Source: Bacillota bacterium (GTDB lineage: Bacteria > Bacillota > Dehalobacteriia > UBA4068 > UBA4997). Taken from it: a stretch of 58,673 bases of DNA. The notes under the pieces were generated by a model. It saw only the letters and a list, made by a program, of their open reading frames with translations, had not been told where the DNA came from and searched no databases. Positions within the stretch are counted from its first letter, which is position 1, and the number at the start of each line of letters is the position of its first letter. This document shows positions 15,636-16,655 of the stretch, one piece after another. Made by a program: the position numbers and the translations under genes. The stretch is taken from positions 1 to 58,673 of the forward strand of contig JAETTP010000008.1 in NCBI GenBank assembly GCA_021769035.1, in the 5' to 3' direction.

Positions 15636-16226
15636 ATGCTGCATAATGTTATTGCTATTATCAGCGTTTTTATGGTGCTGCTGACGATGTTTGAGCGGGT
15701 TTTCCGCCAGAAGCGGCGCGGCATTAAGGCCAATTTGCTCTGCCGGCATCATATTATGGAATTTGTTATTTATCCTTATGTGCTACTGCTGGCCTATCAC
15801 GTGCTGGCCTACAGCTTTAATTGGCCGCAGGCCTGGGGCGCGGCCCTGAACACGGTGCTGATTCCCTGGGGCTGGTTGGATTGGGTGGGCGATTTGCTCT
15901 GCATTATTGGTATGGTGATTTTTGTCTGGTGTATTCAGTCCTTTGGCGCGGCCTTTCGGCTGGGCGTGGATTACGAGCACCCGCAGGAGCTGATTACCAC
16001 CGGCATTTACGCCTACACCCGCAACCCTATGTACGTGGCTTACGACTTGATTACGCTAGGGCTTTTCCTGATTTACCCCACGCCGCTGTTCTTTATTTTC
16101 GGTTTGGGCTGCTGGTCAATCTTTTTCCGGCAGACGATTATTGAGGAGGAATTTTTGCGGGAATATCACGGCGAGGCGTTTGCGGCTTATTGCAGCAAGG
16201 TGGGGCGGTTTTTTAAAGAGTTCTGA
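15636..16226 (+). CDS. membrane methyltransferase of the isoprenylcysteine/phospholipid methyltransferase superfamily
   Basis: 196 residues with about five membrane helices. The C-terminal signature TTGIYAYTRNPMYVAYDLI ... IIEEEFLREYHGEAFAAYCSKVGRF is that of the ICMT/PEMT superfamily, where it forms the S-adenosylmethionine site facing the cytosol. The substrate in bacteria of this kind is unknown; a lipid or small hydrophobic thiol or carboxyl compound is possible. It follows glyS by 19 bases with TTAAGGAG before the ATG, so it is probably co-transcribed, and is followed by the structured RNA element. Confidence 0.85.
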   Translation: MLHNVIAIISVFMVLLTMFERVFRQKRRGIKANLLCRHHIMEFVIYPYVLLLAYHVLAYSFNWPQAWGAALNTVLIPWGWLDWVGDLLCIIGMVIFVWCIQSFGAAFRLGVDYEHPQELITTGIYAYTRNPMYVAYDLITLGLFLIYPTPLFFIFGLGCWSIFFRQTIIEEEFLREYHGEAFAAYCSKVGRFFKEF

Positions 16227-16250
16227 AGCTGCTAATTAAATAATAAATTA

Positions 16251-16356
16251 GGTGCTTGAGGTGGAAGATTTCGTACAATCCACACGCTGCTGGTACAGAC
16301 AATACCTATTTATTAGGTATGAGAGATGCAGGAGAATTGTACGACTGTCAGGCACC
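16251..16356 (+). ncRNA. unidentified structured RNA element (four nested helices) ahead of a terminator
   Basis: Four helices nest without crossing: P1 GGTGCTTGA (16251-16259) with TCAGGCACC (16348-16356), one G-U; P2 TCGTACAAT (16271-16279) with ATTGTACGA (16336-16344), perfect; P3 CTGC (16287-16290) with GCAG (16328-16331); P4 ATACCTA (16302-16308) with TAGGTAT (16314-16320), loop TTTAT. Asymmetric internal loops, including TGGTACAGACA opposite GAGAGAT, separate them. Eight bases later comes a strong terminator. The element starts 24 bases after a stop codon and no plus-strand gene follows it. I match it to no RNA family I know. It could be a 3'-UTR-derived small RNA, an orphan aptamer, or on the minus strand a 3' end structure. 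Confidence 0.55.
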
Positions 16357-16364
16357 ATTAAAAA

Positions 16365-16397
16365 GAGGGCTATGCTTTTGGCATGGCCCTCCTTTTT
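16365..16397. terminator. bidirectional terminator after the structured RNA
   Basis: Stem GAGGGCTATGC (16365-16375) with GCATGGCCCTC (16381-16391), one T-G pair, loop TTTTG, then six T's on the plus strand. Five A's precede the stem, so it can also end the convergent minus-strand operon. Confidence 0.9.
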
Positions 16398-16403
16398 TGC
16401 TTT

Positions 16404-16655
16404 TCATCCTTGCAGCCACCTGGCCAGCCTGTCCATATCCTCAATCACAATGTCAAAAATTTCGCCAAGGCTGGCGCAATATTCCAAAACCTGCCAGGGC
16501 TCGTTGGTGTGGAAGTGGATTTTTATCAGCTTGTCGTCGCCCACAGCCAGCAGGCAATCGCCGGCAAAGTGGCTGGCAAAGTGTTCGCTGATGGCTGATT
16601 CATCAAGGCCTGCGCCCTCAATCAGCAGCTGGGTGTCGTATCTAAATTCAGTCAT
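16404..16655 (-). CDS. small stand-alone FakA/YloV-like middle-domain protein
   Basis: 83 residues. The sequence (YDTQLLIEGAGLDESAI, then LLAVGDDKLIKIHFHTNEPWQVLEYCASLGEIFDIVIEDM) resembles the segment just after the DAK2 domain in FakA/YloV fatty-acid kinase-like proteins, where H-x-HTN-P is a conserved element. No kinase domain accompanies it, the frame is intact and AAGGTG precedes the ATG, so it looks like a real small protein rather than debris. Function unknown; it might bind a FakB-like partner or a small ligand. Last gene of a four-gene minus-strand operon, 8 bases after the DUF6440 gene. Confidence 0.65.
   Translation of the reverse strand: MTEFRYDTQLLIEGAGLDESAISEHFASHFAGDCLLAVGDDKLIKIHFHTNEPWQVLEYCASLGEIFDIVIEDMDRLARWLQG

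Follow-up and report, generated by a model that had tools for sequence, protein, structure and literature searches.

Skipping-rope RNA is one of hundreds of RNA motifs that were found by computer and have no assigned function, and Weinberg et al. reportedly included it in their motif set of 2017. From the same 2017 set comes abiF RNA, whose role as an RNA antitoxin has been proven for a prophage of C. difficile; it acts by direct binding, both in cis and in trans (PMC12373285). In classical type III toxin-antitoxin systems, RNA repeats lie 5′ of the toxin gene, and the toxins process their own antitoxin (PMC5086642). Passages of two further papers describe PBECR domains as predicted endoribonucleases (phage barnase/colicin-like RNases) whose MuF fusions are presumed to undergo packaging and injection (PMC5512222; PMC5576092), and passages of the latter describe a small ORF, a presumed immunity gene, that usually follows the MuF toxins of temperate phages (PMC5576092); these passages make no mention of an RNA partner. 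For the skipping-rope family itself, a loop-loop pseudoknot has already been shown in Rfam 14 (PMC7779021 Fig. 3), and the open papers that we found give neither a function nor a protein partner.

Here we analysed a window of 58,673 nucleotides, the whole stretch of DNA presented above, which holds one copy of this RNA. We identify the window RNA as an orphan of this family, and our results suggest that skipping-rope RNA probably serves PBECR2/PBECR3 nucleases as RNA partner, most likely in the role of an antitoxin or immunity factor. While the RNA family and its pseudoknot were already known, the neighbourhood link to PBECR genes is a new result; we found no report of it in open papers, a scope outside which the 2017 primary description lies. 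A fixed partner gene turns a function-less motif into a testable two-part system.

The window locus and its RNA family

On the plus strand, genes that we take from their translations to be recO, glyQ and glyS are followed by an ICMT gene, the RNA, a terminator and a convergent ORF:

15636–16226, plus strand: ICMT gene, isoprenylcysteine/phospholipid methyltransferase family (Pfam PEMT 4e-17, ICMT 1e-8)
16251–16356, plus strand: orphan copy of skipping-rope RNA, RF02924 (E 3.9e-7 and 36.7 bits in cmscan over model positions 1–80; alignment)
16251–16258 GGTGCTTG with 16349–16356 CAGGCACC, plus strand: outer stem P1, 8 bp, acceptor-like (pairing)
16261–16283, plus strand: first hairpin, D-arm-like, stem GTGGA 16261–16265 with TCCAC 16279–16283, 13-nt loop
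16272–16277 CGTACA with 16338–16343 TGTACG (in the last-hairpin loop), plus strand: pseudoknot strands (covariation)
16302–16320, plus strand: extra hairpin of the middle arm, ATACCTA 16302–16308 with TAGGTAT 16314–16320
16321–16332, plus strand: conserved GAGAGATGCAGG element at the start of the last arm, invariant in the alignment of the window's subfamily, a count that is biased because the scan that collected window-type copies demanded this element
16328–16348, plus strand: last hairpin, T-arm-like, GCAGG 16328–16332 with ACTGT 16344–16348
16365–16399, plus strand: intrinsic terminator, stem 16365–16391 (12 pairs), then T-tract CTTTTTTG
16404–16655, minus strand: convergent 83-aa ORF with a FakA-like middle domain (Pfam FakA-like_M 1e-17)

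By its Pfam matches, the ICMT gene, which lies 3′ of glyQ-glyS and 5′ of the RNA, is not a nuclease. The middle domain is the sole FakA-like part present in the 83-aa ORF. Since the terminator is A-rich on its opposite side, it may serve the convergent gene as well.

An earlier note on this DNA had placed a structured RNA between a stop codon and a strong terminator, with helices beyond chance, and both points held; the stop codon is that of the ICMT gene (16226). Single-strand folding of 16245–16400, terminator included, gave −56.6 kcal/mol against −37.2 ± 3.8 kcal/mol for 200 dinucleotide shuffles (z −5.2), none of which folded as well. The same note had called the RNA unidentified, which was overturned by the covariance-model search against Rfam that it had proposed: the RNA matches RF02924, skipping-rope, over the full-length model with 36.7 bits, a score equal to the family's gathering cut-off (36.7 bits). 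This match came from a permissive Rfam scan of 400 bases, after which it also passed the cut-off in the family search; when the whole window was scanned against Rfam at the gathering threshold, nothing was listed, RF02924 included. The assignment is therefore marginal on score, but it is secure via relatives, given two stronger copies in the same genome (59.5 and 49 bits, three copies in total) and 81 aligned relatives. The score (just), the loop-loop pseudoknot, and the outer stem with three arms all place the window RNA in this family. Named relatives of the RNA were mostly Clostridia and Negativicutes among the matches listed by the pattern scan. BLASTN on the DNA of 100 relatives gave mostly chance matches.

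Other identities were rejected. A riboswitch is ruled out because the next gene is convergent, as the earlier note had already observed, the terminator lies 3′ of the RNA, and no downstream gene is conserved in the relatives. A dispersed DNA repeat or insertion element is likewise ruled out, as each genome has only a few copies, which are structured, covary and carry promoters.

Fold and pseudoknot

We aligned 82 RNAs of the window's subfamily and scored an outer stem of 8 bp, a first arm of 5 bp, a middle arm with two small hairpins, a last arm of 5 bp, and the pseudoknot. Overall, 99.5% of cells were paired, whereas slid controls of the alignment reached at most 46%. Compensatory changes in homologues, which the earlier note had suggested looking for, were strong, with 236 double-change cells against 60 in shuffles. 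P1 was paired in 98.9% of cells across the 82 RNAs, with both-sided changes in six of its eight pairs, and the first-hairpin stem in 99.8%, its last pair showing an A-U/U-A double change in 36/82. The 6-bp pseudoknot pairs at five of six positions in all 89 relatives and at the sixth in 83 of the 89; its 21 sequence combinations gave 123 of 126 possible pairs, compared to a shuffled mean of 92 and maximum of 106. The extra middle-arm hairpin is variable, with double changes in 3/3 shared pairs, and variants of GAGAGATGCAGG such as GAGACG occur in relatives collected via the protein. The last hairpin of the window copy contains a G-U pair, and in place of its fifth pair stands a G-A mismatch seen only in this copy.

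The four helices of the earlier note are present as sequence complementarity, but they are not nested, forming instead cloverleaf-like arms plus a loop-loop pseudoknot. Its helix 1 (16251–16258/16349–16356) is the family's P1, and its 7-bp helix (16302–16308/16314–16320) is the variable extra hairpin. The pairing in its 9-bp "P2" (about 16271–16279/16336–16344) is real, yet it is a pseudoknot between hairpin loops and not a nested helix: "P2" comprises the 6-bp pseudoknot, extended by two or three pairs that arise by chance or at the edges, and its edges compete with the local hairpins 16261–16265/16279–16283 and 16328–16332/16344–16348.

In the window subfamily, the middle arm is longer than in RF02924 and carries two small hairpins; sequence, secondary structure, pseudoknot and terminator are shared. 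The RF02924 consensus resembles the tRNA cloverleaf in its arm order and linker lengths (outer stem, 2 nt, 5-bp arm, 1 nt, middle arm, 4 nt, 5-bp arm, 0 nt), and its contact between first and last loops mirrors the tRNA elbow, a likeness of topology alone. In contrast to tRNA, skipping-rope RNA lacks CCA and has a 6-bp loop-loop helix. A tRNA relic is ruled out by the absence of ARAGORN calls in 91 RNAs and of any tRNA match in Rfam.

Coupling to PBECR nuclease genes

The two stronger copies in the genome lie beside the only PBECR genes found there. One (the C65 copy) is prophage-borne, flanked by the gene of a MuF-type minor head protein that carries PBECR2 at its C-terminus and by scaffold and capsid genes, and the other (the C8 copy) is directly behind a solo PBECR2 gene of 127 aa; no nuclease is near the window copy. 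With BLASTN, the C65 copy matched no annotated phage. Directly behind the solo PBECR2-RNA module is a PhdYefM-ParE type II toxin-antitoxin pair (L038:2317–2914, G000:C8), and a similar-looking pair lies 5′ of an orphan RNA at L230, such that PBECR2-RNA modules may cluster with other toxin-antitoxin genes.

We drew 398 genomes of the phylum irrespective of whether they had the RNA; in this unbiased sample, a profile search found PBECR2/3 genes in 16 genomes and the covariance model found RF02924 in 27. The RNA was present in all 16 PBECR genomes, 15 by covariance model plus G367, where a variant RNA missed by the filters was read directly 3′ of the nuclease gene. By comparison, 12 of the 382 genomes without PBECR had the RNA, meaning that 12 of the 27 RNA-bearing genomes had no detectable nuclease. 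Coupling of RNA and PBECR was significant with the 15/16 count (Fisher p 4.6e-19), although distant PBECR proteins without RNA could be missed, given that the profile was built from proteins beside the RNA. An independent Pfam PBECR2 search agreed with this: it found nine genomes, and with G367 included each of them has the RNA. The RNA adjoined the nuclease gene in 15 of the 16 PBECR genomes, downstream and on the same strand except for a convergent arrangement in G308; in G400, the RNA was 1.8 kb from a nuclease gene that has an in-frame stop.

A scan of genomes for the RNA pattern gave at least 80 loci, some of the collected loci being near-duplicates. Among the matches listed, PBECR2 was just upstream on the same strand in 61 of 82 copies, typically with a gap of 38–54 nt between nuclease and RNA, and most nucleases were stand-alone proteins of about 125–132 aa, while MuF fusions carried the RNA too. 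Four of the 21 listed copies without upstream PBECR2 were at contig edges, leaving 17 of 78 evaluable copies (∼22%) without a detectable nuclease. Among viral loci collected via the protein, the RNA was behind the gene in 35 of 36 evaluable cases; 12 of these 36 contigs were also in the RNA scan, and 23 of the other 24 had the RNA. L130 was the sole viral PBECR2 locus found without downstream RNA. An intact nuclease without RNA was seen only this once, whereas intact RNA with a broken or absent nuclease was common, including RNAs beside nuclease remnants at L198 and L168.

PBECR3-clade genes, 16–21% identical to PBECR2, hold the same position beside other skipping-rope types. The His and Ser of the nuclease are 100% conserved, in agreement with a published active-site scheme (PMC5512222), and divergence of RNA and nuclease was weakly correlated (Mantel r 0.20). 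Neither Foldseek with the nuclease model nor a PDB sequence search found a significant relative (the best relevant match was a CDI protein, E 0.27), and PADLOC gave no real match.

The RNA is mostly single copy behind the nuclease. Tandem pairs of skipping-rope RNAs follow one PBECR2 gene at L163:834–1208 and L211:5598–5811, and a second-copy remnant lies upstream at L197 and L230. Viral contigs L058, L076, L078 and L117 have skipping-rope RNAs of other subtypes and no PBECR in the record, that of L078 being near an endolysin-like gene, and the RNA at L108:4507–4600, which separates minor capsid from scaffold genes, is encoded on the opposite strand to the head genes.

Promoters, terminators and alternative modes of immunity

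A sigma-70-type promoter with at least 10/12 matches was found inside or just past the end of the nuclease gene in 80% of RNA copies, compared to 2.5% of shuffles, and a terminator was behind 64 of 92 copies, compared to 0.9% of shuffles. Having its own promoter and terminator fits the needs of an antitoxin made in excess. A conserved downstream immunity ORF was not found; the largest homologous cluster covered 4/60 loci and was a phage scaffold protein, and with at most 4/60 sharing an ORF, a conserved downstream immunity protein of the MuF-toxin kind is rejected. The energy of the duplex between RNA and cognate toxin start ranked 0.49, equal to chance, which speaks against a type I (antisense) system. 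Given that the RNA matches toxin starts no better than non-cognate ones, direct binding is likelier than antisense action.

Proposed function and rival readings

Given that most relatives lie directly behind genes of phage-type RNA-cutting toxins, the RNA is suggested to be the toxin's antidote. A PBECR nuclease would be toxic, whether it is encoded on its own or fused to the C-terminus of a phage MuF head protein, in which case injection along with the phage DNA is predicted. The RNA gene within tens of bases 3′ of it, with its own promoter and terminator, would yield a compact, pseudoknotted particle of tRNA-like shape, and this particle would bind and block the nuclease, protecting the lysogen or carrier. 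Orphan copies may protect hosts in trans, and the window copy may be transcribed by read-through from the glyQS-ICMT operon. The broader idea that skipping-rope RNAs are a new class of tRNA-shaped immunity RNAs, possibly tRNA mimics, against head-loaded, injected PBECR nucleases, with orphans such as the window's acting as host-saving antidotes, is tentative and rather doubtful.

The proposed antidote is best read as type-III-like, with a new fold and gene order. Similar to ToxIN, CptIN and TenpIN (PMC5086642), the family has a pseudoknotted RNA beside an endoribonuclease gene, the nuclease class here being predicted from Pfam, while the window copy itself has no adjacent nuclease. Instead of upstream tandem repeats of 34–50 nt with a terminator between repeats and toxin, skipping-rope RNA is downstream with its own promoter, about 100 nt long and mostly single, with tandem copies only at L163 and L211. 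The nuclease also differs, being PBECR (BECR class) and not of the ToxN/MazF fold; Pfam gives PBECR2/PBECR3 and no ToxN match. RCd22-AbiF is likewise a structured, prophage-borne RNA beside a toxic protein, which it neutralises by direct binding (PMC12373285), but RNA and protein (Abi_2/Cas13-like) are unrelated to ours, and abiF RNA lies 5′ of the toxin gene and has two motifs. The MuF protein fused to PBECR2 in prophage C65 resembles polymorphic MuF toxins, and toxins of this kind would be expected to depend on an immunity gene next to them; here, the downstream immunity slot holds an RNA and not a small protein. If true, our reading would put an RNA antidote into a slot in which studies of phage toxins seek small immunity proteins, and the few RNA antitoxins known so far would be joined by one with an unrelated fold and an unrelated class of nuclease.

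Several observations run counter to an antitoxin: ∼22% of window-type copies (17/78) and 12/27 RNA-bearing genomes have no detectable nuclease, several phage contigs have the RNA and no PBECR in the record, gene order and single copy are unlike classical type III systems, RNA and nuclease divergence are correlated only weakly, and Foldseek found no significant solved relative for the nuclease model. The near-obligate adjacency would also be explained if the RNA were a cofactor, guide or substrate of the nuclease, forming an active ribonucleoprotein or being matured by it, and the two roles can overlap, given that type III toxins process their own antitoxin. This reading is unlikely, however, as frequent orphan RNAs with their own promoters are unexplained by a mere cofactor, the strong own promoter indicates that RNA is probably in excess, and no variable guide segment is seen outside the self-paired pseudoknot loops.

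For orphan terminated RNAs, a base-pairing small RNA is the usual guess, and the copies that stand alone in many hosts and bear both promoters and terminators, together with phage contexts lacking PBECR, are consistent with a trans-acting RNA for which the nuclease is merely a mobile companion. We consider this very unlikely given the presence of the RNA in 16/16 PBECR genomes, its retention by two nuclease clades of 16–21% identity, and conserved segments that are structural, with no antisense match to toxin starts. Two mutually complementary loops and a place among phage head genes also recall a structural or packaging RNA like phi29 pRNA, with loops pairing between molecules. That role is highly improbable, since most genome copies are behind stand-alone nucleases outside head operons, orphans are chromosomal, and the coupling tracks the nuclease domain and not the head module.

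Present state of the window copy

Two readings of the window copy are nearly balanced, an early relic and an orphan antidote whose transcription would come from the glyQS-ICMT operon by read-through. A decaying relic, left over from an earlier nuclease-RNA module, would have no present function; this is a serious possibility and compatible with the antitoxin reading of the family. Consistent with decay, the window copy scores lowest of the three copies (36.7 versus 59.5 and 49 bits), lacks a promoter (the best candidate has 7/12 matches, and shuffles average 7.4), and bears its unique G-A mismatch; additionally, the RNA of the sister genome G006 lacks both pseudoknot strands, and other orphans (L169, L182) lack the last arm. 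On the other hand, the window copy has retained its P1, first arm and pseudoknot, its P1 differs from that of G006 by a compensatory change (G-C versus A-T), its terminator is intact, and its fold is far better than that of shuffled sequence.

The stretch between the ICMT gene and the FakA-like ORF varies in content within the genus. No RNA was seen at the orthologous stretch of G007 and G001. In G006, the terminator region of the window RNA is conserved, the orthologous RNA has decayed with deletion of both pseudoknot strands, and a 216-aa ORF of no Pfam family (L312:791–1441) lies directly upstream of it.
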